From Betaproteobacteria bacterium (GTDB taxonomy: Bacteria; Pseudomonadota; Gammaproteobacteria; Burkholderiales; SG8-41): DNA of 64,000 nt. Both the position numbers and the translations under genes were made by a program. The DNA is taken from assembly GCA_900299145.1 (NCBI GenBank), contig OMIN01000026.1, positions 1 to 64,000 of the forward strand, given 5' to 3'. This document shows positions 7,547 to 36,089 of this stretch, piece after piece; within the stretch, counting starts at the first letter, position 1, and every line of letters starts with the position of its first letter. Under the pieces are notes generated by a model. That model did no database searches. It had not been told where the DNA came from and was given only the letters and a program-made list of their open reading frames with translations.

Positions 7547-7621
7547 TGGTGGGCGGTACTGGGATCGAACCAGTGGCTTCCACCGTGTGAAGGTGGCACT
7601 CTACCGCTGAGTTAACCGCCC
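7547..7621 (-). tRNA. tRNA-Val (anticodon CAC)
   Basis: The minus strand folds into a complete cloverleaf. The acceptor stem is GGGCGGT/ACCGCCC, and the D arm runs around ACTCAGCGGTAGAGT. The anticodon stem CCACC/GGTGG holds the loop TTCACAC, giving anticodon CAC for the GTG codon. The T arm is ACTGG-TTCGATC-CCAGT, and discriminator A is followed by an encoded CCA. Nothing suggests a disrupted gene, and no integrase gene is adjacent. Confidence 0.96.
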
Positions 7622-11799: not shown

Positions 11800-13446
11800 A
11801 TGTACGTCAAATCCATAGCGGACAACGCGGAATTCGATTATGTGGTCATCGGCGCGGGCTCTTCCGGCTGCGTGATGGCCGCCAAGCTTTCCGAGGCAGG
11901 GCACAGCGTGTTGCTGCTGGAAGCCGGTGGGCGTGATACCAGTTTCAATATCAAGGTGCCGCTGTTCGTAGCCCACGTGCTGAACGATGAAAACCTGATC
12001 TGGCCTTACATGACTGAGCCACAGGTTCATTTAAATGGTCAACCCCAGCGCTGGACACGCGGCCGCGTGATTGGTGGTTGCAGCTCCATCAACGGCAATC
12101 TGTTCGTACGGGGTGATCCGAAGGAGTACGACAACTGGCGAGCTGCCGGCTGCGAAGGCTGGGGCTACAACGACATGCTGCCGATTTTCAAACGGTTGGA
12201 GGATTTTCCCGAGGGCGATCCATCGATTCGCGGCAGCGGCGGGCCGATCCATTGCACGCCGTTGACGAATTTTGACCCGTTGTCCGATGCCTTCATACAG
12301 GCCTGTGGCGAAGCCGGTTACAAAAAGCCCGCTGATTACAACGACGGCAACTACGAAGGCGCATTTTATTTGCAGTACTCCACGCGCAATGGCTGGCGTA
12401 ACAGCACGCCGGTGGGCTATCTCAATCCGGCGTTGAAGCGCTCGAACCTGACGGTGTTGCCCAACGCGATAGTCACGCGGCTTTTGCTTGAGGGTGAGCA
12501 GAAAAAGCGCGCAACGGGTGCGGAGTTTCGCCTGGGTAATTCCGGTGAAACCACGCTCAAGGTAAAAGCGCGGCGCGAGGTGATTCTGTCGGCAGGGCCG
12601 CTGGCCTCGCCAAAAATTCTGGAACTGTCGGGCATCGGCAATAGAGACGTGCTGCAAAAATTTGGTATCGCCACGCAGCATCATTTGCCCGGCGTGGGTG
12701 AGAATCTGCGTGATCATCCGAATACGCGTATCACCTATGAATGCGCGAAGCCCATCACGATTAACGACGTGCTGCGCAGTCCGTGGCTGAAGTTGAAGGA
12801 AGGTCTGCGCTTTGTGTTCAAGCGCGAAGGCTTGCTGACAATTTGTTCGGCGACCGCACAAATGAATTACCGCAGTAGCGACAAGGTGGAGCAGCCTGAT
12901 CTTGTGTTGCGCCTGCTGCCGCTGTCGGGCCGCGACCGGTACGCGCGTACGCCGGACAAGGGCCTCGATCCGCATCCGGGATTCACTTTCGGCATTACCG
13001 TGTTGCAGCCGTTTTCGCGCGGCACGGTCCACCTGAAATCCACCGATCCGCTGGCGCAGGCGGCGATGGATCCGAGGTATCTGTCGCACGAGGCTGATGT
13101 GCAGACCTTCCTCGATGGCATGCGTGTCGCGCGCAAGGTGGCGTCGCAGCCGGGGCTGAAGGATTTGATTGTGCGCGAAACGCGGCCCGGCCCGGAGGTC
13201 AATGACGACGCGGGGCTGATCGATTACATGAAAGGCACCATTCAGACCAGTTGGCACATGGTTGGCACCTGCAAGATGGGCGTGGACGACATGGCGGTGG
13301 TCGATCCGCAGTTGCGCGTGCGCGGGCTCGACGGTTTGCGCGTGGTGGATTCGTCGATTTGCCCGACCATTCCGTCATCGAACACGAACATTCCGTCTAT
13401 TGCGATTGGGGAGAAGGGTGCGGATATGGTGTTGGCGGCGGGCTAA
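11800..13446 (+). CDS. GMC-family FAD oxidoreductase (alcohol/choline dehydrogenase-like)
   Basis: The 548-residue protein shows the GMC fold. FAD-binding FDYVVIGAGSSGCVMAAKL lies near the N-terminus, and GRVIGGCSSINGNLFVRGDPKEYDNW matches GMC signature 1. REVILSAGPLASPKILELSGIG matches signature 2. A C-terminal SWHMVGTCKMG...VVDSSICPTIPSSNTN carries the active-site His and Asn region. Such enzymes oxidise alcohols to aldehydes. It heads a plus-strand block with a Bug receptor, the UGSC selenoprotein and an enolase-superfamily enzyme, which may form one catabolic route. Substrate not determinable. Confidence 0.92.
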   Translation: MYVKSIADNAEFDYVVIGAGSSGCVMAAKLSEAGHSVLLLEAGGRDTSFNIKVPLFVAHVLNDENLIWPYMTEPQVHLNGQPQRWTRGRVIGGCSSINGNLFVRGDPKEYDNWRAAGCEGWGYNDMLPIFKRLEDFPEGDPSIRGSGGPIHCTPLTNFDPLSDAFIQACGEAGYKKPADYNDGNYEGAFYLQYSTRNGWRNSTPVGYLNPALKRSNLTVLPNAIVTRLLLEGEQKKRATGAEFRLGNSGETTLKVKARREVILSAGPLASPKILELSGIGNRDVLQKFGIATQHHLPGVGENLRDHPNTRITYECAKPITINDVLRSPWLKLKEGLRFVFKREGLLTICSATAQMNYRSSDKVEQPDLVLRLLPLSGRDRYARTPDKGLDPHPGFTFGITVLQPFSRGTVHLKSTDPLAQAAMDPRYLSHEADVQTFLDGMRVARKVASQPGLKDLIVRETRPGPEVNDDAGLIDYMKGTIQTSWHMVGTCKMGVDDMAVVDPQLRVRGLDGLRVVDSSICPTIPSSNTNIPSIAIGEKGADMVLAAG

Positions 13447-13463
13447 AATTATCAGAGAAAATA

Positions 13464-14426
13464 ATGAATAAAATCAAATGCTTATGCATACCTTTCTTGC
13501 TGGGGACAGGTGGCGCGCAAGCCCAGCAATATCCGGTTAAACCCGTGCGCGTCATCGTCGGCTTCACCGCCGGCGGGCCGTCGGACATCGTCGGGCGTAT
13601 TGTTGCCACGCAGCTCTCCGAGCGCATGGGGCGCCAATTCGTGGTGGAAAACCGCGCGGGCGCCACCGGCATGATCGGCGCGGAACTGGTTGCCAAAGCG
13701 CCGCCCGACGGCCACGCGCTTTATATCGCCAGCCAGACCACACACGCGGTCGCGCCGTATATGTATGCCAAGCCGCTCTACGATCCGGTGAAGGAGTTCG
13801 CCACGGTGTCGCTGGTGGCGCACAACCCGCTGCTGATGGTGGTGCATCCATCAATGAATGTTAAGACGGTAAAGGATTTGATCGCGATTGCTAGGGCTCA
13901 GCCCGGCGCAGTAAATTTTGCCACCGGTGGGATCGGCTCATCGCCGCACATGTCGATGGAGCTGTTGAAAAGCATGGCCAAAATCGACATGGTACCGGTG
14001 CATTACAAAGGGGACGGCGCGGCGATCATCGATCTGGTGGGCGGACAAGTGTCATTGTTTACCGCGAGCATCGCCGGGCTGGTGCAACACGTGAAAAGCG
14101 GCAAGCTGCGCGGTATTGCAGTGACGGGCGCCAAACGCTCGGCGATCGCGCCGGAGTTCCCGACCATCGCTGAAACGGGTCTGCCGGGTTATGAGGTGGT
14201 GACGTGGTTCGGCTTGCTTGCCACGGCAGGCACGCCCGCGGATGTGATCAACAAACTCTACAATGATTTGGGGCAGTCACTAACACAACCGGCGGTGAAG
14301 GATCAGTTCACCAAACTGGGACTGGAGGTCGTGGGCAGTTCGCCGGATAACTATGCGCAGTTCCTGCGTGCGGAGAACACGCGCTGGGGGAATATGGTGC
14401 GGCAGTTGAAGTTGAAGGCGGACTGA
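13464..14426 (+). CDS. Bug/TctC-family periplasmic tripartite tricarboxylate receptor
   Basis: The 320-residue protein has a signal peptide ending GGAQAQQ and the receptor core: YPVKPVRVIVGFTAGGPSDIVGR, the domain I pattern AGATGMIGAELVAKAPPDGHALYI, and a C-terminal AGTPADVINKLYNDL. The family binds carboxylates or amides in the periplasm for TctAB-type transporters. The start is placed at ATG 13464 because it opens a proper signal peptide. The first codons (NKIKCL) are formed by a copy of the dispersed A/T-rich motif. It sits 18 bp after the GMC oxidoreductase and just upstream of the selenoprotein gene, suggesting uptake of their substrate. Confidence 0.9.
   Translation: MNKIKCLCIPFLLGTGGAQAQQYPVKPVRVIVGFTAGGPSDIVGRIVATQLSERMGRQFVVENRAGATGMIGAELVAKAPPDGHALYIASQTTHAVAPYMYAKPLYDPVKEFATVSLVAHNPLLMVVHPSMNVKTVKDLIAIARAQPGAVNFATGGIGSSPHMSMELLKSMAKIDMVPVHYKGDGAAIIDLVGGQVSLFTASIAGLVQHVKSGKLRGIAVTGAKRSAIAPEFPTIAETGLPGYEVVTWFGLLATAGTPADVINKLYNDLGQSLTQPAVKDQFTKLGLEVVGSSPDNYAQFLRAENTRWGNMVRQLKLKAD
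13467..13484 (+). repeat. Dispersed A/T-rich 18-mer inside a signal peptide
   Basis: AATAAAATCAAATGCTTA matches 17 of 18 positions and begins directly after the ATG of the Bug receptor, coding for NKIKCL. Confidence 0.8.
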
Positions 14427-14444
14427 CGAACTTGGGTGAGCAAC

Positions 14445-14558
14445 ACCGTCGTTCCAGCGAAGGCTGGAACCCAGCTGGTAACTCGCGCCGCAGGCGCATT
14501 AATCAGTTGCTTCGCAACAGGAAACGCACTGGATTCCAGCTTTCGCAGGAATGACGGT
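14445..14558 (+). repeat. Inverted-repeat element, REP-like
   Basis: The ends ACCGTCGTTCCAGCGAAGG and CTTTCGCAGGAATGACGGT are imperfect inverted copies flanking about 75 bp of stem and spacer sequence. Relatives occur at 19846-19929 and 35950-36048. It lies in the gap between the Bug receptor and the selenoprotein gene, so a hairpin could attenuate or stabilise that transcript. Confidence 0.75.
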
Positions 14559-14611
14559 GGTGGTAAGTGGATATCCCGATTCTTGGATGTGGTTGAAGTA
14601 AAGGAAATCAA

Positions 14612-16300
14612 ATGAACGAAAAACTGGGCGTAATCAGCCCCGAAGGTCTACAACTCAAACCTGCCGGCGGCGTCAGCCGGCATCTGGACACGCTGGCCGG
14701 CAAAACCATCGGCGAGGTCTACAACAATCACTTCAAGGGCGAACAGATGTTTCGCGCCTATCGCCGGCTGCTGACGGAAAAATTTCCAGGCGTCAAAATC
14801 ATTTCCTACGACAAGTTCCCGACGATTTATGTCGGGGGCGATCCGGTGTCGCAAAAGGCGGATGCCGAAAAGGCCGCTGCACTGGCGAAGGAATGGGGCT
14901 GCGACGCCATCATCACCGGCAACGGGGGATGAGGCACCTGCACTCCGGCCTCGGTGAGGCCGGCGGCAGCGGCGGAAAAGTTGGGCATACCCAGCGTGGT
15001 GGTGACGACGACGGGCTTTACTGCCATCGCCAAGGCGGCCGGCAAGGCTCAGGGCATCACGGGCCTGCGCGTGGCGGAATATCCCGGCGCGGTGGGCGTG
15101 CACAATGAAGCGTTGGTGGAAAAAAATGTCGAGACGGTACTGATCGATCGCATCATCAGCGAACTGACGGCGCCGCGCAGAGCCGATGGCGAAGAACCTT
15201 CGTCAACTGAACGTCGGCCCGACGCCATCGTGTTCGAAGGCAGCTTCGATGAAATCAACGAACACTTCCGCGAACAACTGTGGTCAGACGAATTGCCGGT
15301 GGTGCCGCCCACGCCCGCGCGCGTGGAAGCGTTTTTGAAGCACACGAAACGCGCGCCCGACGAGCATATTGCCATTTTGCCGCAGGCGAATCTGGCGGCC
15401 ACGCCGCGCAACATCGCCGCCAACGCGGTAATGGCCGGCTGCAAGCCCGAATTGATGCCGGTGCTGATCGCGGCGGTTGAAGCGCTGGCCGATAACCGCT
15501 ACAACCTGAACAACATCGGCAGCACGTGGGGCGTGCTGCCGTTTTTGCTGGTCAACGGCCCGGCGATGCGGCGGCTGGGCATCGAATGCGGCGCGCAGCT
15601 CGTCAACAAGGGCGCCAATCCGTCGCTGGGGCGCGCGTTGGGTCTCATCATCAAGAACATCGCGGGCTATAAATACAGCCGCAATTACATGGGCACGTTT
15701 GGCTATCCGCTGAATTTTGTCATCGCGGAAAACGAGGCCGAAAATCCGTGGGAGCCGTTCCATGTTGAACACGGCTTTAACCGCAACGACAACACGGTGA
15801 CGGCGTGCGGCACGGTGACATGGGGTTGGGCGCCGGCGATTTACGGTATCGAGGAAAAAAATGCCGCGCAGGCCGCGTTGGAGTTTCTCGCCCTTGAAGT
15901 CACAAAAAAGCCATGCCTCGCGCGGCTGGTGGAGCGCGGCCCCAATGGCTTTCAGAACATGATTACCTTCATGATAGCGCCGCCGGTGGCGCGGGCGCTG
16001 GCGGCGGCGGGGTTCACCAAGCAGAAAATCCGCGACTACGTTTACGAGCACGCGCGCGTGCAGCGGCGCGAGCTGGAATTCCTGATTCAGTACGGCCACT
16101 CAGAGGCATTCCGCTTTCCCGACATGGTCGAGCGAGGGCTGATCCCGAAGGACTATCTGGTGAACGAAACCGAGCTGGTACGCGTGCTGCCGAGCGCCGA
16201 TGTCATCAACATCGTGGTGTGCGGCGACCCGGATCGCAACCGGCTGATGGTGCTGTGGGGCGGTTACGTGAAGCCAGTGACGAAGAAAATTGAGTTGTAA
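14612..16300 (+). CDS. UGSC-family selenoprotein (selenocysteine encoded by in-frame UGA)
   Basis: One frame runs 563 codons if the UGA at 14930-14932 (codon 107) is read as selenocysteine. The context is NGG-U-GTCT, a redox-type UxxC motif matching the UGSC of the UGSC (seleno)protein family with Ser replaced by Thr. Coding similarity continues on both sides without a gap: KEWGCDAIITGNGG before, AAEKLGIPSVVVTTTGF after. An 8-bp hairpin with loop GGT follows at SECIS distance. AAGGAA precedes ATG 14612. Residues 1-180 form the UGSC domain. The rest, including LPVVPPTPARVEAFLKHT and a long region I do not recognise, is fused to it. It lies between a Bug receptor and an enolase-superfamily gene. 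Function unknown; a thiol/selenol redox role is inferred. Naive gene calling would split it. Confidence 0.85.
14930..14963 (+). promoter_or_regulatory. UGA selenocysteine codon with bacterial SECIS hairpin
   Basis: TGA (14930-14932) is followed by CCGGCCTC (14945-14952), loop GGT (14953-14955) and GAGGCCGG (14956-14963), a perfect 8-bp stem. Counting the U of UGA as 1, the loop bases are 24-26, close to the conserved loop GU at positions 23-24 in E. coli fdhF. SelB would bind here during translation. Confidence 0.8.
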
Positions 16301-16307
16301 TAAAGTC

Positions 16308-16325
16308 AATTAAATCAAATACTTA
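16308..16325 (+). repeat. Dispersed A/T-rich 18-mer overlapping a start codon
   Basis: AATTAAATCAAATACTTA is a perfect match. Its final A is the A of the ATG start codon of the enolase-superfamily gene. Confidence 0.85.
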
Positions 16326-17497
16326 TGAAGATAGAGCGTATCGAGATTTTCGTTACAGAACTGCCGGTTCGCGTGCGGCGCATTTTTTCCAGCGGCTCGT
16401 ACGACACTGGCCCGGCGAACCAGATTCTTGGCAAACCGGTAATGGTGAAAATTTTCGCCGAAGGCGTGGTGGGGTACGGGCAGATACGACCGATCACGCC
16501 GGGGCATTTTCTGGCGGATACCACGCAGGGCATGGTGGCGGCGATCAAGGAAATTTACGGCAAGAATCTCATCGGCAAATCGATTTTCGACATCGAGTCG
16601 GCGAACGAAATGTTCGATCTGCGGCTGGCGGGAAACCCGTGCTCGCGCGCGGCGCTCGATATCGCGCTGTATGACGCCGTGGGCAAGGCACTGAACGTAC
16701 CCGTGCACAAACTCATCGGCGGCGCTTGCCAGCCACGCATTCCGCTGGAGTGGTCGGTGAGCCTCGCCAACGACGTGCAGACCATCGTCAACGAAGCCAA
16801 ACGGGCGGTAGACGAATTCGGCATCAAGGTGCTGTGCATCAAGGCCGCTGACCGCCGTGGCTGGAAGCAGGACGTGAAACATTTCGCCGCCGTGCGCAAG
16901 GCGGTGGGCGACGATGTGGTGATTGGTGTCGATCCCAATACGGGCTGGAGCATGGCCGATGCGCTGGCCGCAACCCACGCGCTGCGCGAATACGATCTCG
17001 GTTACATCGAGCAGCCGATAGACCGGCGCGATCTCGCGGGCATGGCAGAAATCCGCCGTCAGGCGATGGGCATCCCGGTGATGGCTGATGAAGCGCTCTT
17101 CACCGTACAGGACGCCTACGCCATTGCCGAAACCCGCGCGGCCGACGCCTATTGCATCAAGCTCTACAAGATTGGCGGCCTCACGCCGGCAAAAAAAATA
17201 GCCGGCATCGCACAGGCGGCGAACATTCAACTCAACTGCGGCGGTCTGGCGGTGCAGTGTCAGCTGGAGGCCGCCGCCGGCGCGCATTTCTACGCCAGCA
17301 CGCCGGAAAAACGCATGATGGGGGCGGCCGAGTTTGTGTTTGGCCTTAACACCATCGGGCCCGACCCGATAGTGCCGGTGACGGATTTTGTGGTGAAGGA
17401 TGGCCACGTCAACGTGCCCACCGGGCCAGGGCTGGGCATTACGGTGGATGAAGCGGCCCTGAAAAAACATATGTTGCTGCATGAAGTGATTTCGTAG
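16325..17497 (+). CDS. Enolase-superfamily enzyme (mandelate racemase/muconate lactonizing type)
   Basis: The 390-residue protein has the MR/MLE N-terminal capping domain followed by a TIM barrel. Likely metal ligands are D203 (IGVDPNTGW), E229 (GYIEQPIDRRD) and the D255-E256 pair (VMADEALF); K279 is a candidate general base. The usual KxK on strand 2 is C171-I-K173, so one of the two lysines is replaced by Cys, arguing for a reaction other than classic muconate cycloisomerisation. It follows the selenoprotein gene by 24 bp, with a dispersed-motif copy in between, and precedes a secreted cupin. There is no clear ribosome-binding site, which is unusual next to well-spaced neighbours. Confidence 0.88.
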   Translation: MKIERIEIFVTELPVRVRRIFSSGSYDTGPANQILGKPVMVKIFAEGVVGYGQIRPITPGHFLADTTQGMVAAIKEIYGKNLIGKSIFDIESANEMFDLRLAGNPCSRAALDIALYDAVGKALNVPVHKLIGGACQPRIPLEWSVSLANDVQTIVNEAKRAVDEFGIKVLCIKAADRRGWKQDVKHFAAVRKAVGDDVVIGVDPNTGWSMADALAATHALREYDLGYIEQPIDRRDLAGMAEIRRQAMGIPVMADEALFTVQDAYAIAETRAADAYCIKLYKIGGLTPAKKIAGIAQAANIQLNCGGLAVQCQLEAAAGAHFYASTPEKRMMGAAEFVFGLNTIGPDPIVPVTDFVVKDGHVNVPTGPGLGITVDEAALKKHMLLHEVIS

Positions 17498-17518: not shown

Positions 17519-17986
17519 ATGAAAACAGGCTTGATTTCGCATGCAATGGTGGGTGGTGTGGCGGCGGCAGTGGCATCCGGCGTCACGTGGTTCGCGTTGA
17601 GCGGCTCGCCACAACTCTTTGCGCCAGCGCATGCCCAGACGCCGCCGCCAACGGGGCTCAAGCAAATCGACCTGATGAAGGTCGAAATGAAAGACGTAAT
17701 GGGACGCGTTGTCACCATCCGCCGCACCGAGCGCGACCCGGGCAATGGCAGCGATCCGCATCGCCATCCCGGGGCACACACCTTCGGTTACGTACTCGAA
17801 GGCACCTACGAATTTCGCCTGAACGACGGCCCGATCCAGCAACTGAAACCGGGCGATACGTTTTACGAGCCGCTCGGTTCGCTGCACGCCGTATCACGCA
17901 ACCCGAGCAAGAGCGACGTGGTCAAGTATCTGGTGATACAGGTAACCGACCCCACCAAACCCGCGACCGTACCCGAGAAAAAGTGA
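17519..17986 (+). CDS. Exported cupin-domain protein
   Basis: The 155-residue product has an N-terminal hydrophobic signal (residues about 8-40, ending AHAQ). A single cupin follows, with motif 1 HRHPGAHTFGYVLEGTYEF (three His plus a later Glu for a metal) and motif 2 around PGDTFYEPLGSLHAVSRNPS. GGAGG lies seven bases before ATG 17519. It is 22 bp downstream of the enolase-superfamily gene and 4 bp upstream of a GNAT gene, hence likely in the same transcript. Periplasmic cupins of this type have no settled function. Confidence 0.87.
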   Translation: MKTGLISHAMVGGVAAAVASGVTWFALSGSPQLFAPAHAQTPPPTGLKQIDLMKVEMKDVMGRVVTIRRTERDPGNGSDPHRHPGAHTFGYVLEGTYEFRLNDGPIQQLKPGDTFYEPLGSLHAVSRNPSKSDVVKYLVIQVTDPTKPATVPEKK

Positions 17987-17990
17987 CGGC

Positions 17991-18449
17991 ATGGTGGGCA
18001 TTGTTATCCGAAAGATAGAGCCGCGCGACGAGGGCCGCTGGCGAGTACTGTTCGACGGCTATACGCGCTTTTATGAACGCGAGCCGGATGAGGCCATCAC
18101 GCGCCATGCGTGGGCACGCATCATGGATGCGGCAAAACCCGTATACGCCATCGTTGCCGAGGATAGTGAACGGGGCGTCATTGGTATCGCCAATTACATC
18201 CTGCACGAAAACATGTCGGCGCTGACGCCGGTGTGTTACCTGCAGGATTTGTTCGTGGAGCCGGGCCTGCGCGCGCACGGCGTGGGCGAGCAAATGATCG
18301 ACTGGCTGGTGGCTGAAATGCAGTCGCAGGGCTGGGCGCGGCTTTACTGGAACACCAAAGAGAATAACTATCGGGCGCGCGGCCTTTACGACAAATACAC
18401 GCCGCGCGATCCGTTTGTGCGGTACGTGATTCCGCGCAAGGCGGGTTAG
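17991..18449 (+). CDS. GNAT-family N-acetyltransferase
   Basis: This 152-residue protein has the GNAT fold, with motif A seen as CYLQDLFVEPGLRAHGVGEQMIDWLVAE (the acetyl-CoA pyrophosphate loop region R-x-x-G-x-G/A) and the C-terminal WNTKENNYRARGLYDKY typical of this family. It transfers an acetyl group from acetyl-CoA to a small-molecule or protein amine in the cytoplasm. It starts four bases after the cupin stop and ends eight bases before the MFS start, so it belongs to the same operon. Acceptor unknown. Confidence 0.87.
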   Translation: MVGIVIRKIEPRDEGRWRVLFDGYTRFYEREPDEAITRHAWARIMDAAKPVYAIVAEDSERGVIGIANYILHENMSALTPVCYLQDLFVEPGLRAHGVGEQMIDWLVAEMQSQGWARLYWNTKENNYRARGLYDKYTPRDPFVRYVIPRKAG

Positions 18450-18457
18450 CGCCACCG

Positions 18458-19729
18458 ATGGAGGAACGCACAACGGCATCGGCGCCGGCGCAGGGCGCGC
18501 GGCTTGGTTTCCTTGCGCCGTTTCACTTTCGCAATTTCCGTTTCCAGTGGCCGGCGGATGTTGCCGCCTCGTGGGCTTACGAGATGGAAACCATTGTGCT
18601 CGGCTGGTATGTGCTGGTCGAGACGAAATCGGTTTATCTGCTGACGGCGTTCGCGGCCATTCAATACATCGGCACTCTGCTTTCGCCCATGTTCGGCGTA
18701 ATGGGCAACCGCATCGGCAACAAGCGGCTTTTGTGCGGCATGCGCGGGCTGTATGCGGTGCTGGCGATCATCATGACCGCGCTCACGGTGACGCAGCAAT
18801 TGACGCCCACGTATGTGTTTATCTGCACCACGCTGTTGGGGCTGGTGCGGCCGTCCGACCAGGTGCTGCGATACGCGCTGATCGGCGAAACCATGCCCGC
18901 AAGCTATATGCTGCCGGCGGCCAGCATTTCGCGTACTACGCAGGATTCGGCGCGCATCATGGGCGCGCTGCTGGGCGCGGGGCTGGTGGCGGCGTTTGGC
19001 ATGGGCTCGGTGTATACGGTTGTGGCGTCGTTCTACGTGATGAGTTTTGTGCTGACGCTGCGCGTGAAGGGTGTGCGGCGCGAGGCGGCCGAACTGGAGC
19101 AGACATCGCCATGGCGTGACCTGAAAGAGGGCGTGGCCTACAGCTGGACTACGCCGCAGATTCTGGCGGCGATGTGGCTGGCATTGCTGGTGAACCTGAC
19201 CGCGTATCCGCTGACGCATGGCCTGCTGCCTTATGTGGCGAAAGAGGTGCTGCACACCACGCAGACCGGGTTGGGATATCTCTCGGCAGGTTTTGCCGTG
19301 GGCGCGGTTTTTGGCGCGGTGGGCATCAATCACGTGAGCCGCGTGATTTTGCCTGCGCGCTGCATGGTCATTTTCTGCGCGGGCTGGTACGTCGCCCTGC
19401 TGATATTCAGCCAGATGGGCGGCCTCACGCTGGCGGTGGCCGCCATGGTGTTCACCGGCTGCATGCAGAGCCTGGGCATGGTGTCGATGTCGGCGCTTCT
19501 GCTGCGCACTGCCAGCGGCCCGCTCAGAAGCCGCGTGATGGGGCTGCGCATGCTGATGATTTACGGCCTGCCCGTCGGGCTGATGGCGGCCGGGCCGCTG
19601 GTTACGCGGCTGGGGTATCACGCCACCGTGTGGCTGTATTGCGTCATCGGCATTGCACTAACGGTGTTGATCGCGTGGCGCTGGCGCGCGCATTTGTGGC
19701 GGCACGATGCGCTGGCGAACCGGCGGTAG
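18458..19729 (+). CDS. MFS transporter, EntS/MFS_3-like exporter
   Basis: The 423-residue membrane protein begins with a short hydrophilic stretch and LAPFHFRNFRFQWPADVAAS, the typical start of MFS_3 (enterobactin-exporter-like) permeases. About twelve hydrophobic helices follow, with a loop GVMGNRIGNKRLL between helices 2 and 3. It is the last gene of the co-directional block that starts at the GMC oxidoreductase and probably exports or imports a metabolite of that pathway. Start ATG 18458 is directly followed by GAGGAACG; no strong upstream ribosome-binding site, consistent with coupling to the GNAT gene. Confidence 0.85.
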   Translation: MEERTTASAPAQGARLGFLAPFHFRNFRFQWPADVAASWAYEMETIVLGWYVLVETKSVYLLTAFAAIQYIGTLLSPMFGVMGNRIGNKRLLCGMRGLYAVLAIIMTALTVTQQLTPTYVFICTTLLGLVRPSDQVLRYALIGETMPASYMLPAASISRTTQDSARIMGALLGAGLVAAFGMGSVYTVVASFYVMSFVLTLRVKGVRREAAELEQTSPWRDLKEGVAYSWTTPQILAAMWLALLVNLTAYPLTHGLLPYVAKEVLHTTQTGLGYLSAGFAVGAVFGAVGINHVSRVILPARCMVIFCAGWYVALLIFSQMGGLTLAVAAMVFTGCMQSLGMVSMSALLLRTASGPLRSRVMGLRMLMIYGLPVGLMAAGPLVTRLGYHATVWLYCVIGIALTVLIAWRWRAHLWRHDALANRR

Positions 19730-19845
19730 TATTTGAATGCCATCCTATTCCTGATCTCACATAATGTGCGGAAGAAGAACGGAAGGGCATTCATAGAAAA
19801 AATGTGTGAGTGGCGCAAGGCTGCACAAGGCATGCAATATAACCC

Positions 19846-19929
19846 CTGTCATTCCCGCGAAGGCGGGAATCCATAAGCCTTTCTCAGGTGGCAATGTGTT
19901 ATGGGTTCCCGCCTGCGCGGGAACGACAG
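19846..19929 (+). repeat. Inverted-repeat element, REP-like
   Basis: CTGTCATTCCCGCGAAGGCG and CGCCTGCGCGGGAACGACAG form imperfect inverted ends, each arm itself able to fold. Same family as 14445-14558 and 35950-36048. It occupies the spacer between convergent MFS and Bug genes, where it could act as a bidirectional end-of-transcript structure. Confidence 0.8.
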
Positions 19930-19973
19930 TATTGGTTTTTCTGCTTTTCGATTTACTGTAAGAGTGCTGAAAA

Positions 19974-20948
19974 TCAGTCCAACTTGACCTTTGCCTTTTT
20001 CACGACGCCGCTCCAGCGGCCGATTTCTTCTATCACGTAGCGGTGATAGTCAGCAGGGCCCAGGTAATCAATGTCGGCCCCTTCGTTGATGAGGCGCTTT
20101 TTCACCTCGTCCTGCGCCAGCGCCCATTTCACTTCATTGCTGACGCGTTCGACAATCGCGGCGGGCGTGCCAGCTGGAGCGAACATGCCCCACCACTGCA
20201 CGGATTCAAAGCCGGGCAGGGTCTCCGTGATGGCAGGCACATCCGGCACCTGCGGGTTACGTTTCGGGCTGCCCACGCCCAGCATGCGCATGCTGCCCGC
20301 ACGCACGTGCGGCAGGTTTTGCACCAGCGTGCCGAACAGCGCCTGGCTCTCGCCGCCGATGGTGGCCATCACCGCCGGGCCGCCGCCGCGATATTGCACG
20401 ATCACGGCGTCAATGTTGGCCATCAGCTTGAAAAGCTCCGCCGCCAGATGCGTTGACGTGCCCACACCCGCCGCGCCGAAGTTGAACTGGCGTGGCTTTT
20501 GTTGCGCGAGTGCGATGAATTCCTTCACCGTTTTCGCGGCAATGTTGTTGTTGACTACCAGCGCGTTGGGCGAGGTGCCAATGCGCGCAACGGCTGCGAA
20601 CGCCTTCACCGTGTCAAACGGCAGCTTTTGCAGCGCGGGCAGCACGGCATGCGGCGTGGAGATGAACATCAGCGTGTAGCCATCGGGCACGGCGCGCGCG
20701 ACGATTTCACTGCCGATGATGCCGCCCGCGCCGCCGCGATTGTCGACAACGACCTGCACACCGAGGCGCTCGGCGATTTTTGCGGAGATTAATCGCCCGA
20801 CGATGTCCGGGCTGCCGCCGGGCGGGAAGGGCACGACCATGCGGATGGGTTTGGCCGGCCACGCCTGCGCCTGCGCCTGCATGGGCGCAGACATCCCGGC
20901 AAGCAGGCAAAAAATACTTAATAAAAACAAATAGTTACGATAGATCAC
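19974..20948 (-). CDS. Bug/TctC-family periplasmic receptor
   Basis: The 324-residue receptor shows AWPAKPIRMVVPFPPGGSPDIVGR, GGAGGIIGSEIVARAVPDGYTLMFI and a C-terminal WGMFAPAGTPAAIVERVS, all standard for the family. I chose GTG 20948, with AGGAAG six bases upstream, over a TTG at 20969. The signal peptide (IYRNYLFLLSIFCLLAG...) is partly encoded by an antisense copy of the dispersed A/T-rich motif. It is immediately downstream of a second Bug gene, with which it is probably co-transcribed. Ligand unknown. Confidence 0.88.
   Translation of the reverse strand: MIYRNYLFLLSIFCLLAGMSAPMQAQAQAWPAKPIRMVVPFPPGGSPDIVGRLISAKIAERLGVQVVVDNRGGAGGIIGSEIVARAVPDGYTLMFISTPHAVLPALQKLPFDTVKAFAAVARIGTSPNALVVNNNIAAKTVKEFIALAQQKPRQFNFGAAGVGTSTHLAAELFKLMANIDAVIVQYRGGGPAVMATIGGESQALFGTLVQNLPHVRAGSMRMLGVGSPKRNPQVPDVPAITETLPGFESVQWWGMFAPAGTPAAIVERVSNEVKWALAQDEVKKRLINEGADIDYLGPADYHRYVIEEIGRWSGVVKKAKVKLD
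20920..20937 (+). repeat. Dispersed A/T-rich 18-mer, perfect copy, within a gene start
   Basis: AATAAAAACAAATAGTTA matches all positions. A partial second copy, AAAAAATACTTA, abuts it at 20909-20920, making a short tandem. On the opposite strand it is part of the signal peptide of the Bug receptor (NYLFLLSIF). Confidence 0.85.
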
Positions 20949-20958
20949 GCTGCGCTTC

Positions 20959-21936
20959 CTATCGATCAATTTTGATGCCGGCCGACTTGATCACCTTACC
21001 CCAGCGGTCCGACTCCGCGCGCATGTGCGCGGCGAGGCCAGCCGGCGTGCTGGACTGCGGCTCGGACCCCATGTCGAGCAGCTTTTGCGCGAACGGCGGA
21101 TCGGCGATCATTTTCACCATTTCCGCGTTGATCTTGTTAATGATGGGCGCGGGCGTGCCCGTTGGCGCCAGCATGGCGTACCAGTTGATGCACACAAAGC
21201 CGGGCAGCGTTTCCGCAATCGCGGGCACATCCGGCGCCACTGGTGAACGCTTGGGCCCGCCCACGCCCAGCGCGCGCAATTTGCCGGTGCGCGTGAGCGG
21301 CAACACGGCCGGAATGCTGTTGAACATGAACTGCGCCTGCCCGCCCGCGACATCCGTCACACCGGGGCCGGAGCCTTTGTACGGCACATGCACGAAATTG
21401 ATGCCGCCGAGGGCCTTTAACAACTCGCAGCCGAGGTGATTGGGCGTGCCCGTGCCCGCCGAGGCGCAATTCAACTGGCCGGGCTTGGCCTTCGCCAGCG
21501 CGATGAGCTCCGGCACGTTCTTCGCAGGGACGCCCGGGTGGGAAAACAGCATCTGCGGGTTGATCGACCCCAGCGACACGGGCGCCAGATCACGAAACGG
21601 ATCGTACGGCGTTTTCGACAGCAGCGGATTCAGAATCAGCCCGGCGGACGTCGAAAAAATCAGTGTGTAACCATCCGGCGCGGCCTTGGCCACGATCTCA
21701 TGCGCGATCACCCCGCCCGCGCCAGAGCGGTTATCGATCACGATCTGCTGGCCCCACGCCTCGGTAAAGCGCGGCGCCATGGCACGCACCGTGAAATCGT
21801 TGGAGCTGCCAGCCGTGCCCGGCACGATGACGCGGATGGGGCGGATGGGGTAGGTGGAACTCGTCGTACTCTGGGCGCAAACAGCATGGATTTGAAGAGA
21901 TGCAACGACTGCAGCGATAAGGACGGATTTTTTCAT
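20959..21936 (-). CDS. Bug/TctC-family periplasmic receptor
   Basis: This 325-residue protein has a signal peptide (MKKSVLIAAVVASLQIHAVCAQ) and receptor motifs YPIRPIRVIVPGTAGSSNDFTVR, GAGGVIAHEIVAKAAPDGYTLIF and APTGTPAPIINKINAEM. ATG 21936 is preferred to GTG 21945 because it starts a normal signal peptide. Domain I has AGSSND instead of the usual PGGSxD, a family variation that may reflect ligand choice. It lies between the aconitase-family gene and another Bug gene on the same strand. Confidence 0.88.
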   Translation of the reverse strand: MKKSVLIAAVVASLQIHAVCAQSTTSSTYPIRPIRVIVPGTAGSSNDFTVRAMAPRFTEAWGQQIVIDNRSGAGGVIAHEIVAKAAPDGYTLIFSTSAGLILNPLLSKTPYDPFRDLAPVSLGSINPQMLFSHPGVPAKNVPELIALAKAKPGQLNCASAGTGTPNHLGCELLKALGGINFVHVPYKGSGPGVTDVAGGQAQFMFNSIPAVLPLTRTGKLRALGVGGPKRSPVAPDVPAIAETLPGFVCINWYAMLAPTGTPAPIINKINAEMVKMIADPPFAQKLLDMGSEPQSSTPAGLAAHMRAESDRWGKVIKSAGIKIDR

Positions 21937-21981
21937 GGAAACCACGGAAAGCGGGAGGAAGCGGGATGCTACAGCAAATTT

Positions 21982-24654
21982 CTACGCCGCCAACCCCTCC
22001 AGCACATACGGCAATATCCCGCCCCGCTTCACATAAGCAATCTCAGCCTGCGTATCCAGCCGCAGGGTCAGGGCAACACTTTCTGTCTTGCCATTCGCAC
22101 GCCGGATCACCAGCGTCACCGGCTGGCGCGGCTGCGCGGATTCGTTAAGCCCCAGCACATCAAACTGTTCCGTGCCGTTCAGGCCCAACGTGGTAACGGT
22201 GACGCCTGCGGGCAACTGGCACGGCACGACGCCTAGGCCGACGAGGTTGCTGCGGTGAATGCGTTCAAAGCTGTTGGCGATGACCACGCGCACGCCGAGC
22301 AGGCGCGTGCCCTTGGCGGCCCAGTCGCGCGCGCTGCCGGTGCCGTATTCTTCGCCAGCGATGACGATCAACGGGGTTTGCTCTTTGGCGTAGCGCATCG
22401 CGGCATCGTAGATGGGCATTTGTTCGCCGCTGGGTTGATGCACGGTGACGCCGCCTTCGATGCCGGGGGTCATGATGTTGCGCAGGCGAATGTTGGCGAA
22501 GGTGCCGCGCGCCATCACTTCGTGATTCATGCGGCGCGAGCCGTAGTTGTTGAAATCCTTTTCTGTAACTAATTGATTTTTAAGATAAATTCCAGCGGGC
22601 AGCGATGCCTTGATACTGCCGATGGGGCTGATGTGATCGGTGGTAATGCTGTCGCCCAGCAGCGCCAGCGAGCGTGCGCCGTGATATTCACGCAGGCCCG
22701 ATTGGGTGAGCGCCTTGTCCGCAAGCCACGGCGGCTCTTTGATGTAGGTTGAATTCGCCTGCCACGAGAACAATTCGCCGCTGCTCTGCGCGATATTTTT
22801 CCACAGCGGGTTCATTTCATCGGCGCTCATGCCGTAGACCGCGCGGTAGCGGGCGGGATTCATAGCGGTGGCCATCAGCGCGGCAATTTCATTATTGCCG
22901 GGCCAGAGGTCTTTGAGATACACCGGCTCGCCGTTGCTGCCGGCGCCGAGCGGTTCAGTGCGCATATCAATATCCACGCGCCCGGCGAGCGCAAACGCCA
23001 CCACCAGTGGCGGGCTGGCGAGAAACGCCGCGCGCACGGCCTGATGGATGCGCGCTTCAAAATTGCGATTGCCCGAAACGACGGCGCAGGTGACGGCATC
23101 GCTGTCGATGATGGCGTTTTCAAGCGCGGCATCGATGGGCCCGCTTGCGCCGAAACAGGTGGCGCAACTGTAACCGGCGATGTGGAAACCGAGTTGATCG
23201 AGATACGGCTGTAGCCCGGCCTCGGCGAGATATTTGCCGACGGCCATCGAGCCGGGCGTGAGCGAGGTTTTGACCCACGGCTGCGTTTTCAGTCCGCGTG
23301 CGACGGCATTTTTCGCCAGCAGGCCGGCGGCCAGCATCACGCCGGGGTTGGAGGTGTTGGTGCACGAAGCGATGGCGGCGATGACCACGTCGCCGTCGCG
23401 CGGGCCGCGGGTGCGAGTCATATCATTGTGCAACGATGTTTTGGTGTAGCCACCCTCGGCAATGGGTGCGGTGAGCAGCGCGTCGAAACGGGGCTTTAAT
23501 TGCGCCAGTGGCACGCGATCCATCGGCCGCTTGGGGCCGGCGACATTGGGTTCGATGGTGGTGAGATCAAGCTCAATGACTTGTGAGTAATCGACTTGCC
23601 CGGGCTGGGCCGCGCCAAACAGTCCCTGCGCCCGGTAGTAGGCTTCGGTGGCAGCGATTTGTTTTTCGTCGCGGCCGGTCTGGCGAAGATACTTTATGGT
23701 TTGTTCGTCCACCGGGAAGTAACCGATGGTCGCGCCGTACTCCGGCGACATGTTGGCGACTGTTGCGCGGTCGGGCACCGTAAGGCTTGCGACGCCTTCG
23801 CCAAAAAACTCAACAAACTTGCCCACCACTTTGTGTTTGCGAAGCAGTTCGGTGACGTGCAGCACCAGATCGGTGGCGGTGACGCCGGGTGAGAGTTGCC
23901 CGGTGACATGCACGCCCACCACATCGGGCGTGAGCATGTAGACGGGCTGGGCCAGCGTAGCGGCCTCGGCCTCAATGCCACCCACGCCCCAGCCCACGCA
24001 GCCCAGCCCAGCGATCATGCCGGTGTGCGAATCAGTGCCGACCAGGGTATCGGGGAAATATGCGCCGTCGCGTTCCAGCACGCCGGGCGCCAGATATTCA
24101 AGATTCACCTGATGCAGAATGCCGCTGCCCGGCGGTAGCAGGCGTATGCCCTTATACGCCTGCATCGCCCATTTGACGAAGCGAAAGCGCTCGGCATTGC
24201 GTTCGATATCAAGTGCGTTGTTCTTCGCAGCGGCGTCGGGCGTGCCGTGATAATCGACGGTCAACGTGTGATCGAGCACCATGTCCACCGGCACTTTGGG
24301 CTCGGCCAGTGACAGCGGCAAGCCGCGCTTCGCGACTTCGCCGCGTATCGCCGTCAAGTCACCAAGCAACGGAATGCCCGCCATGCAGTTCAACACCACG
24401 CGCCCGACGATGAAGGGAATTTCAGCGGTGCGTGGCGCGTTCGGTTGCCATGCCGCCAGCTCGCGCACGTTGTCGTCACTGACCAAGTCGCCGCCACTAT
24501 TGCGCAGCAACGATTCCAGCACGACGCGCAACGACACCGGCTGGCGGGAAATTTTGCCCAGCCCTTGTTGCTCCAGTGCGTGCAGCGAATAGTAGTGGCC
24601 GGGCTTGCCGTTCTTAAGGTCGATGGGGCGTTTGCAAGTGTCTTGGAGTGACAT
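21982..24654 (-). CDS. acnA: Aconitase-family hydratase (AcnA type), with unusual active-site residues
   Basis: The 890-residue protein has the full AcnA/IRP layout. Three cluster ligands are visible: C431 (SCTNTSNPG), C497 and C500 (YSCATC). PDTLVGTDSHTGMIAGLG and the C-terminal swivel domain GEEYGTGSARDWAAKG...SFERIHRSNLVG are present. It should interconvert citrate and isocitrate in the cytoplasm. Several positions differ from typical AcnA: GTGSSRDW is GTGSARDW, CTTCIGNSGP is CATCFGASGP, and DSHTTMINGLG is DSHTGMIAGLG. The first removes a serine next to the catalytic Ser. Another (iso)citrate-like substrate is therefore possible. A dispersed-motif copy is read in frame as LKNQLV. Flanking Bug receptors support a role in organic-acid use. 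Confidence 0.88.
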   Translation of the reverse strand: MSLQDTCKRPIDLKNGKPGHYYSLHALEQQGLGKISRQPVSLRVVLESLLRNSGGDLVSDDNVRELAAWQPNAPRTAEIPFIVGRVVLNCMAGIPLLGDLTAIRGEVAKRGLPLSLAEPKVPVDMVLDHTLTVDYHGTPDAAAKNNALDIERNAERFRFVKWAMQAYKGIRLLPPGSGILHQVNLEYLAPGVLERDGAYFPDTLVGTDSHTGMIAGLGCVGWGVGGIEAEAATLAQPVYMLTPDVVGVHVTGQLSPGVTATDLVLHVTELLRKHKVVGKFVEFFGEGVASLTVPDRATVANMSPEYGATIGYFPVDEQTIKYLRQTGRDEKQIAATEAYYRAQGLFGAAQPGQVDYSQVIELDLTTIEPNVAGPKRPMDRVPLAQLKPRFDALLTAPIAEGGYTKTSLHNDMTRTRGPRDGDVVIAAIASCTNTSNPGVMLAAGLLAKNAVARGLKTQPWVKTSLTPGSMAVGKYLAEAGLQPYLDQLGFHIAGYSCATCFGASGPIDAALENAIIDSDAVTCAVVSGNRNFEARIHQAVRAAFLASPPLVVAFALAGRVDIDMRTEPLGAGSNGEPVYLKDLWPGNNEIAALMATAMNPARYRAVYGMSADEMNPLWKNIAQSSGELFSWQANSTYIKEPPWLADKALTQSGLREYHGARSLALLGDSITTDHISPIGSIKASLPAGIYLKNQLVTEKDFNNYGSRRMNHEVMARGTFANIRLRNIMTPGIEGGVTVHQPSGEQMPIYDAAMRYAKEQTPLIVIAGEEYGTGSARDWAAKGTRLLGVRVVIANSFERIHRSNLVGLGVVPCQLPAGVTVTTLGLNGTEQFDVLGLNESAQPRQPVTLVIRRANGKTESVALTLRLDTQAEIAYVKRGGILPYVLEGLAA
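22566..22583 (-). repeat. Dispersed A/T-rich 18-mer inside acnA, degenerate
   Basis: Minus-strand TTAAAAATCAATTAGTTA matches 14 of 18 positions and is followed by CAG as in the copy at 62558. It is read in frame in the aconitase gene (LKNQLVTE), making an A/T-rich island in GC-rich coding sequence. Confidence 0.55.
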
Positions 24655-24676
24655 GGCTTTTCCGTGGTGGGCCAGG

Positions 24677-25636
24677 TTATTTCGCGAACCCTAATTCCCG
24701 TAACAGCTTGCCGGTGACTTCACGCTCCGCCATCAGTTCTTTTTTGAATTGCGTGGAATCGGCGAAGGCGTCTGCCCAGCCGTATTGCGCCAGCGCTTTT
24801 TTCCAGGCGTCGGTTTTCATCAGTTTGCCCAGACGATCATCCCAGAACGCGATGACCTCGGGCGGCGTGCCCGGCGGCGCGAACAGGCCGCGCCAGTGCA
24901 GGATTTGCATTTCGATGCCCAGGCCGCGCCAGTGCGGCACGCCGGCGAGGTCGCCACCTTGGGGGGAGGGCGCAGACGTCGCAAGCAGCCGTGCCTTGCC
25001 GGCCTTGACGTGCTCCATGGCCTCGGACGCTGTGGTGGATATCACCTGTACGTGGCCGCCGAGCAACTGGATATTGAGATTGCCGCGAAACGCCGCGATG
25101 CGAAGTTTTTTGTAGTCCGCGCCGTGCTGCATCGCTGGCCGTACCACGTTGAAGTAATCGTTGCTCGGCATGGAGCCGACGCCGAACGCGACCGACGCAG
25201 GGTCGGCCTTGATCTGATCGAGAATGTCTTTCGCGCTGCGTTGGGGCGAATCGGTACGTACCACCCACACCAGATATTCGGTGATGAGGCGCGCGAGCGG
25301 CACAAAGTTGTCGAAATCAAGCTGCGTGGTACCGACGATTTTATTCTGGTAAATGCGATTGCTTTCAAGGTAGAGGACGTGGGGATCGCCCTTTTTTTGA
25401 TGCACGTAGGCCTTGGCGGCATCGCCCGCTGCGCCACCCATGTTGTTAATGATCATGGGTTGCGTGATGAGTTTCGCCTCGTGGATGGCGTTGTCCAGCG
25501 CGCGGGCAGCAGCATCGAGGCCGCCGCCGGCATTGCCTGCCGGCACGACTTCGATGCGGCGCGAAGGGTAAGCCGCCTGAACATGGGCAGAGGCGAGGAT
25601 CCAACTTGAGATCAGCAGGCAGAAGATGGTTTTCAT
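24677..25636 (-). CDS. Divergent Bug/TctC-family periplasmic receptor
   Basis: The 319-residue protein has a signal peptide (MKTIFCLLISSWILASAHVQA) and a weaker version of the family pattern: YPSRRIEVVPAGNAGGGLDAAAR, then MIINNMGGAAGDAAKAYVH where others have the NRxGAGGxxG motif, and APPGTPPEVIAFWDD near the end. It belongs to a more distant branch of tripartite tricarboxylate receptors than the other copies. Start ATG 25636 is chosen for the signal peptide. It ends 22 bp before the aconitase-family gene on the same strand, so the two are likely an operon. Confidence 0.82.
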   Translation of the reverse strand: MKTIFCLLISSWILASAHVQAAYPSRRIEVVPAGNAGGGLDAAARALDNAIHEAKLITQPMIINNMGGAAGDAAKAYVHQKKGDPHVLYLESNRIYQNKIVGTTQLDFDNFVPLARLITEYLVWVVRTDSPQRSAKDILDQIKADPASVAFGVGSMPSNDYFNVVRPAMQHGADYKKLRIAAFRGNLNIQLLGGHVQVISTTASEAMEHVKAGKARLLATSAPSPQGGDLAGVPHWRGLGIEMQILHWRGLFAPPGTPPEVIAFWDDRLGKLMKTDAWKKALAQYGWADAFADSTQFKKELMAEREVTGKLLRELGFAK

Positions 25637-25785
25637 GTTGGGAAATCTCAGTGTGTCTCGAAAGGCGAGGAGGACGATGATGCGCATCGCGATTTTAGCG
25701 GTGGGCGTGCCGCAAGGTAAGCCGTGCGCACGCGGCGTGGCGATTGTGCGATCATCGCGGCTCTTGTCAGTGAAGGAAAAATTCC

Positions 25786-26217
25786 ATGGGCCAACAACCG
25801 GTCGTCACCGTCGACGACATTACCCAAATTGCTTTTGATACGCGCCGCCCGGGGTGCGAGAAAGGGGTGATGCACGAAGATGGCCCCGTGCAAACGGCGG
25901 TGTTTCGCGTGGCGCCGGGTTCGGGCGTGCCGCGCCATTTGCATTCCCGGGTTTATGATCTATTTGTCGGCGTGAAGGGCTTGCTGGAGATCCGTTATGA
26001 AGGCCAGCATGGCCACGGCATTTTTCAGCTCAAGCCCGGCGCGTTTTGCGCCATGCCGCCCGGTGTGCGGCACGAAGTGTTTAATCCCAGCCTGACCGAC
26101 GAGGCGTTTTTCCTGATCGTGCATGCGCCGCACAACGGCTACGATTTCGTGCCGGTGGAGTTCAAGCACCTGCAGCCGATGCTGAATGATCCCAAATACC
26201 GCGTGCCCGCTGCCTAG
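25786..26217 (+). CDS. Cupin-domain protein
   Basis: The 143-residue protein has a single cupin barrel: PRHLHSRVYDLFVGVKGLLEI for motif 1 and LKPGAFCAMPPGVRHEVFNP for motif 2 with its His. AAGGAA lies seven bases before ATG 25786. No signal peptide is present, so it is cytoplasmic. It is divergent from the Bug/aconitase operon and starts a plus-strand run with two TauE/SafE exporters. Function unknown. Confidence 0.82.
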   Translation: MGQQPVVTVDDITQIAFDTRRPGCEKGVMHEDGPVQTAVFRVAPGSGVPRHLHSRVYDLFVGVKGLLEIRYEGQHGHGIFQLKPGAFCAMPPGVRHEVFNPSLTDEAFFLIVHAPHNGYDFVPVEFKHLQPMLNDPKYRVPAA

Positions 26218-35949: not shown

Positions 35950-36048
35950 CCGTCATTCTGGCGAAAGCCAGAATCCAGTACGTAAGAAATTACCGGCGCG
36001 TAACGCCGCAAGTTACAACCTGGGTTCCAGCTTTCGCTGGAACGACGG
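35950..36048 (+). repeat. Inverted-repeat element, REP-like
   Basis: CCGTCATTCTGGCGAAAGCC at the left and GGGTTCCAGCTTTCGCTGGA followed by ACGACGG at the right form inverted ends, related to 14445-14558 and 19846-19929. It fills the spacer between two minus-strand genes, the carboxylase and the acyl-CoA synthetase. Confidence 0.75.
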
Positions 36049-36089
36049 GGAGGGGTGTGGATGAGTTTGGCTGAGGAAAAAATTGACTA

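Follow-up and report, generated by a model that had tools for sequence, protein, structure and literature searches.

The closest described relatives of the gene analyzed here are the UGSC family (PF24696; NF041046, which NCBI names "UGSC family (seleno)protein"), in which selenocysteine (Sec) stands first in a UxxC motif, and the Sec subunits of the clostridial reductases, namely PrdB of D-proline reductase (TIGR04483) and GrdB, GrdF, and GrdH of glycine, sarcosine, and betaine reductase (TIGR01917, NF040794, and NF040795). According to the accessible part of one study, UGSC made up 8.2% of the selenoprotein genes in a marine set and was among the most abundant environmental selenoprotein families (PMC9402790). 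The available portions of two articles group the family with thioredoxin-like proteins (PMC2398784, PMC13188914), and the same portion of one of them reported in 2008 its fusion to an unknown domain called "Unknown_1" (PMC2398784). No specific function is given for UGSC in the available sections of the reviews. On the reductase side, a GrdB/GrdE-like pair, FarB and FarE of Cloacibacillus porcorum, has been proposed for fluoroacetate reduction in the available text of that report (PMC10838667).

The gene in question lies at 14612-16300 on the plus strand of the window, by which is meant the whole stretch of 64,000 nucleotides that was analyzed, and would encode a two-domain UGSC selenoprotein of 562 residues, including a UGA that is read through. 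As a UGSC member it is ordinary; its interest lies in the reclassification proposed here, in the two-part architecture, and in the expansion of the family in a lineage with cytochrome oxidase. The original prediction, made from the sequence alone, had missed both the expansion to 19 copies and the link to GrdB/PrdB. Its assignments of a selenoprotein, of UGSC, and of a long C-terminal extension stood; the Thr variant it pointed out is not special, a fusion had been reported before, and its argument from gene context is weak.

The frame contains a single internal TGA at codon 107 (14930-14932, plus strand; context GGUGTC). The standard code splits it into ORFs of 106 and 448 amino acids, the two truncated genes that had been foreseen, and since gene callers using that code split UGSC genes in this way, the class is easily missed in annotation. 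That the UGA sits inside one continuous protein, as was originally claimed, agrees with frame, domain, and selection alike. PF24696 was matched as one Pfam domain across the TGA, covering residues 8-186, and TGA was found at codon 107 in all three orthologues (loci L068, L069, and L070). Identity to these three was 65 to 75% on the 5' side of the codon and 71 to 79% on the 3' side, with dN of 0.17-0.24 and dS of 0.73-1.29 upstream and dN of 0.16-0.21 and dS of 0.91-1.05 downstream, values indicating that purifying selection acts on both sides of the UGA.

Among 110 long homologue rows, a set that includes the copies from the source genome and the window copy itself, the Sec column held TGA in 87, Cys in 20, and another residue (Ser, Thr, or Gly) in 3. 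At least five changes between Sec and Cys were placed on a tree of 108 rows, and a single Bacteroidota/Verrucomicrobiota clade, which adjoins a Pirellulaceae Sec row, holds 16 of the 20 Cys rows. The search for Cys homologues that had been recommended yielded CGTC in 2 and CGSC in 1 of these 20 rows. The literal U-G-S-C motif is absent from the window gene, which has U-G-T-C. The Thr variant is thus present as described and is not special, being found in 13 of the 110 long rows (window copy counted) and in the PrdB of Geosporobacter; among the Sec rows S, T, A, G, V, L, and N were all seen at the third motif position. The Cys of the motif, Cys110 (14939-14941, plus strand), is invariant in the nine long copies of the source genome and at least 90% conserved across 86 aligned proteins, and it is probably the resolving residue. 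Two long homologues in an Acidobacteria MAG (L098:8185-9843 and 18276-19952) have Ser or Thr in place of Sec, with a Sec copy in the same locus, and one short copy of the source genome (L027, G000:C110:32769-33266) has the motif UGSS and lacks the resolving Cys.

The bacterial SECIS-like hairpin proposed in the original prediction was found at 14945-14963 on the plus strand with position, arms, and loop as claimed: 8 bp between arms 14945-14952 and 14956-14963, closed by the loop GGU. The 48 nt following the UGA folded at -27.5 kcal/mol, a z score of -3.03 against dinucleotide shuffles (2 of 200 equally good) and of -2.57 against synonymous recodings of the peptide (p 0.025). When a single position-tolerant hairpin search was applied to 160 distinct but mutually related rows, identical 90-base stretches having been merged, a stem of at least 6 bp was found in 66 of 85 long Sec rows, in 53 of 55 short Sec rows (some of them long genes seen only in part at the end of a locus, e.g., L001), and in 1 of 20 Cys rows, 16 of which come from one clade. 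The median z against synonymous recodings was -1.37 for long Sec rows and -0.18 for Cys rows (Mann-Whitney p 2.7e-5); taken singly, 29 of the 85 long Sec rows and 12 of the 55 short ones passed p 0.05. The pairs also covary. Across 41 distinct sequences of short copies, pair 21-27, in which each base occupies a third codon position, appears as C-G 23 times and as G-C 17 times. Among the eight sequences of the window clade, five have T-A and three G-C at pair 22-28, and at pair 17-33 seven have C-G and one T-A, so that two of the eight pairs show two-sided changes; the paired fraction was 0.984, a value also reached by the best shuffle, and the L069 hairpin has one mismatch.

The source genome (5.5 Mb, 99.7% complete) carries the selenium genes for which a search had been advised, with selA, selB, and a tRNA-Sec of UCA anticodon together on contig 110 and selD on contig 129 (L015, G000:C129:8959-9888). 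A single in-frame TGA within selD makes SelD a probable selenoprotein as well. A two-domain UGSC gene (L031, G000:C110:61188-61718) lies in divergent orientation about 200 bases from selA and adjoins selB and tRNA-Sec. The sole tRNA found in the window is a tRNA-Val (cac) at 7547-7621 on the minus strand. Because one domain crosses the UGA, the TGA is conserved under selection, Cys homologues exist, the hairpin covaries, and the sel machinery is present, the reading of UGA107 as Sec, by the organism's SelB system acting at the 3' hairpin, is strongly supported at the sequence level. The interrupted gene is therefore very probably a real selenium-containing enzyme, as the selenoprotein claim of the original prediction had it.

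The Sec domain (14633-15169, plus strand; residues 8-186, PF24696 E 1.9e-25) scored 90.4 bits against a Pfam cut-off of 25, which supports the UGSC assignment, and 58 bits against the cut-off of 125 for the equivalog NF041046, which was not reached. The PrdB model TIGR04483 also matched the window protein weakly (E 0.0002), with 20.8 bits against a cut-off of 300, a score that is taken to mean kinship with PrdB and not membership. A protein of Geosporobacter ferrireducens that is a bona fide PrdB (412 bits against the same cut-off of 300) has UGTC at Sec152, and BLASTP aligned it to the window protein with E 4e-7 as a single comparison and 34% identity over 82 residues, placing Sec on Sec and UGTC on UGTC; about 100 columns are aligned between the two families. 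The same UGTC occurs in three GrdB-like proteins of Geosporobacter. In profile comparison by hhalign, the long and the short UGSC alignments each matched a five-member PrdB/GrdB set at 96.6% probability. Within the alignment of long proteins, made up of the window protein and 85 of 98 candidate homologues after removal of near-copies and one partial sequence, 56 of 86 matched the PrdB model with an E of at most 0.1, and 20 to 24 gave weak matches to the GrdB-type models at the same threshold. A literature search outside bioRxiv and most subscription journals found no stated kinship between UGSC and GrdB/PrdB in the parts of the sources available.

AlphaFold2 modeled the whole chain from the 86-row alignment with a pLDDT of 92.8 and a pTM of 0.91. 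In VIA-align, residues 26-190 of the model matched PurE and short-chain dehydrogenases at a Z of about 10, a Rossmann-like alpha/beta arrangement that is very common, as opposed to the thioredoxin-like fold of the accessible literature. Thioredoxin-fold proteins were absent from the 50 top rows for the whole model, an absence that does not exclude such a fold. PDB sequence searches with UGSC gave weak, unrelated matches only, and those with PrdB/GrdB found no PrdB or GrdB structure; the single PrdB row under 0.001 was a designed protein with no stretch passing alone. Taken together, the Sec-on-Sec BLASTP alignment to PrdB, the profile matches, and the matches of 56 of 86 proteins to the PrdB model argue for kinship with the Sec reductases, and UGSC looks like a distant branch of the GrdB/PrdB selenoproteins rather than a thioredoxin-like family. 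A further GrdB/PrdB-like selenoprotein was seen in the source genome (L188, G000:C134:28779-29363), with UPNC in place of UGTC and with an enolase-superfamily gene and a DHDPS-like gene within the same 14 kb.

These data also bear on two other functions, which we consider about equally unlikely. A general thiol redox or peroxide defense protein, with the Sec/Cys pair working like thioredoxin or peroxiredoxin, would suit the UxxC motif, the listing of UGSC with thioredoxin-like proteins in the available text of PMC13188914 and PMC2398784, and the TrxB-like neighbors at 18 of 80 loci; it is disfavored by the Rossmann-like model and the sequence matches to PrdB/GrdB, and the 19 paralogues, 15 to 64% identical and several of them beside varied catabolic genes, fit substrate diversity better. 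The second is a non-redox enzyme, whether isomerase, lyase, or hydrolase, whose Sec and Cys would serve as acid/base or nucleophile, as do the two cysteines of Asp/Glu/hydantoin racemases. Hydantoin racemase was indeed matched weakly by profile (E 0.97) and by structure (rank 43), the C-terminal domain is weakly like cyclic amide hydrolases (E 0.28), and an enolase-superfamily gene is a neighbor; the racemase and hydrolase matches are nevertheless at or near chance, and those to PrdB/GrdB are far stronger. Selenium, moreover, offers little advantage as an acid/base.

No kinship with the reductases was recognized in the second half of the protein (15206-16297, plus strand; residues about 199-562). 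This is the long C-terminal extension of the original prediction, and it is present as claimed; a UGSC fusion to an unknown domain had already been reported, in the available part of the 2008 article (PMC2398784), and the two domains are likely the same. A Pfam/NCBIfam scan of 102 members of the C-domain alignment, comprising 101 of 118 candidates and the window protein, matched no family in more than one member. The model of the domain reached a pLDDT of 93.1. Its best matches in the PDB were a Foldseek E of 0.28 and a VIA-align Z of 4.2, which does not show a new fold, and the PDB sequence search returned weak, unrelated matches only. Cys277 (15440-15442, plus strand), in a MAGC motif, is 90% or more conserved. 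Homology to GrdE/PrdA was considered and rejected by profile comparison (hhalign probability 0.8%), so the window C-domain is unlike PrdA, the partner of PrdB, and unlike the GrdE of the GrdB-type reductases, and the chemistry on the substrate side may differ.

The C-domain is nonetheless the standing partner of UGSC, in a near-constant pairing. Of the 19 UGSC genes of the source genome, 9 are fused to it and 8, all short, have it next to them as a gene of its own, in either order (the C-domain gene leads in L148 and L149, the UGSC gene in L150, L151, L154, L157, L158, and L159); no C-domain was found within the fetched stretch for the short copies in L152 and L156. In relatives it was present in 29 of 30 loci (L038-L067); the one locus without it is a shorter stretch, of 2186 bases. 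It is on these counts, 17 of 19 and 29 of 30, that a two-part enzyme was deduced.

The gene is flanked on the same strand by a GMC-family flavin oxidoreductase (11800-13446; PF00732, E 3e-46) and a Bug/TctC periplasmic receptor starting at an internal ATG (13464-14426; PF03401, E 1.6e-65) on one side and by an enolase-superfamily enzyme (MR_MLE; 16325-17497; PF13378, E 9.8e-51) and a cupin-domain protein (17519-17986; PF07883, E 1e-14) on the other. As a conserved operon these enzymes held only partly: an MR_MLE gene was found in the orthologous locus L069, in which a 390-residue ORF follows the UGSC gene, the GMC gene stands beside the orthologue in L070 and L072 (70% and 68% identity), and L068 and L071 have neither. 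The Bug receptor and the enolase context had been read as the sign of a specific catabolic route, and this reading is weak. Bug genes number 201 per Mb near the UGSC genes of the source genome (18 loci, of which two overlap and were counted twice) versus 162.5 per Mb in 20 other regions of it that were hand-chosen at arbitrary coordinates, many on contigs from the Bug match list. At 1.24 times this background, Bug adjacency was rejected as a functional clue; a Bug neighbor is almost expected because such genes are nearly as dense elsewhere in the genome. Of 80 named loci, which represent the 80 best among at least 565 relatives, 3 have an enolase-superfamily neighbor like that of the window.

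Bug/TctC receptors numbered 65 in 400 kb sampled from the source genome (L167-L186) and 9 in the window, where they fall at 13206-14423, 19977-25804, and 41989-63522 and on; a family search matched all 150 of the 150 scored, i.e., at least 150 of 707 candidates. A short repeat was also seen in the window at 14444-14461, 14542-14559, 19844-19861, and 36033-36050, with 0 to 3 mismatches and four copies against 0.08 expected. The first two copies lie in opposite orientation just 5' of the UGSC gene, and the repeat is possibly a dispersed palindromic element; an inverted-repeat search ahead of the gene found no inverted pair.

Among 20 chosen neighbors of UGSC genes in the source genome, those of catabolic type comprised a 2-hydroxyacid dehydrogenase, MmgE/PrpD (found also in 12 of the 80 named loci), two acyl-CoA dehydrogenases, a CoA transferase III, an acetyl-CoA hydrolase-like protein, an amidohydrolase, a Rieske oxygenase, a TPP enzyme, and a PQQ-type dehydrogenase. 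Others of the 20 were unassigned or had housekeeping or unrelated roles, such as the genes for histidine and glycolysis and for EAL/GGDEF proteins. Thioredoxin-reductase-like (TrxB-like) flavoproteins with a CxxC occurred in 18 of the 80 named loci, or 14 per Mb, versus 0 in 400 kb of background from the source genome, a single genome unmatched to those loci, and in six (L081, L106, L111, L118, L134, and L135) the gene directly adjoins UGSC. In the source genome itself, none was found in the 64-kb window and one among the 18 UGSC loci. The fused gene of Geosporobacter has around it transporters for 2-hydroxycarboxylates and citrate, AtuA, a gene of the aconitase family, and one that is TrxB-like.

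From these data, the explanation we favor by a modest measure is that the protein is a Sec enzyme of the UGSC branch of the GrdB/PrdB superfamily that combines a Rossmann-like Sec domain with an unclassified partner, and whose chemistry would be reductive and whose substrate would be a carboxylate. The redox partner is suggested by the TrxB-like genes of the named loci, six of them directly adjoining, and the carboxylate by the transporters, aconitase-family gene, and AtuA beside the Geosporobacter gene. In the model, Sec is predicted to lie in the loop that connects beta strand 99-105 to helix 110-123. The selenolate would attack a substrate of carboxylate type bound where the two domains meet, and a polarized bond of the substrate would be broken or reduced. 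Sec would then be released via Cys110 as a selenenyl sulfide, which the thioredoxin-reductase-like flavoprotein may reduce. Paralogues with differing neighbor enzymes would perform the same chemistry on different substrates. The reductase link, the fixed partner domain, and the recurrent TrxB-like neighbor together give UGSC a testable mechanism. In the available text on FarB/FarE (PMC10838667), the likeness is that of a Sec protein with a substrate-side partner, a proposed bond cleavage, and a small carboxylate; FarE is GrdE-like, and the window C-domain is not.

Several observations count against this explanation: the low PrdB model score, a partner unlike GrdE/PrdA, the scarcity of TrxB in the loci of the source genome, the three long rows with neither Sec nor Cys, the UGSS copy, the two short copies with no C-domain, and the housekeeping neighbors. 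A further one is that no GrdA was found, the search giving no match in the source genome and none over the cut-off in 14 control genomes either, so that it had no positive control.

Slightly less probable than the two functions weighed above is a related Sec reductive enzyme whose substrate bears sulfur, selenium, or a halogen instead of being a plain carboxylate. The cleavage of a C-F bond proposed for FarB/FarE (PMC10838667, in its available part) is a precedent, and the present data fix no substrate; the carboxylate transporters that adjoin the Geosporobacter gene speak for the plain carboxylate. That the UGA is a true stop between two separate genes or within a decayed one is highly improbable, for although the standard code gives two ORFs, the second of which may start at GTG 14954 just 3' of the UGA, the domain, the selection, the orthologous TGA, and the Cys homologues span the codon, and the sel machinery and the hairpin are present.

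The source genome has 19 UGSC matches over the cut-off, each with exactly one internal TGA, and a twentieth that is below the cut-off and has no TGA. Nine of the 19 are long (two-domain) and ten are short, and their pairwise identities of 15 to 64% imply old divergence rather than recent duplication. Matches were found in 82 of the 149 genomes searched, including all 74 of the same family (G000-G073) with 1 to at least 21 each. Four genomes searched singly, three of that family and one of another family in the order, gave 35, 58, 40, and 26 matches; those listed include fragments and sequences with an additional stop. The genomes are drafts, probably metagenomic, with room for mixed assemblies behind the high copy numbers. 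For comparison, the largest published selenoproteomes have 57 and 63 genes in the available part of a 2026 review, which also holds that aerobic bacteria rarely retain selenoproteins (PMC13188914). Counts of 19 to 58 UGSC matches per genome, with cytochrome oxidase present in the source genome, run counter to that statement. A literature search of titles and abstract openings, with bioRxiv and most subscription journals outside its scope, found no UGSC or selenoprotein expansion in Betaproteobacteria.

More tentatively, and with less confidence than for the enzyme itself, UGSC and its partner may constitute a separate class of Sec-dependent reductases, the counterpart in respiring bacteria of the clostridial glycine and proline reductases. 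In an uncultured family that is rich in Bug receptors and, judging from its named relatives, betaproteobacterial, the class would have radiated to reach 19 copies here and as many as about 58 matches in one relative, with every copy directed at a different imported carboxylate. If so, one enzyme family would lie behind some of the largest known selenoproteomes, outside the strict anaerobes. UGSC genes were also seen in MAGs titled Bordetella parapertussis (L070, L092, L096, L101, L117, L120, L124, L134, and L141), assemblies that are probably misnamed.
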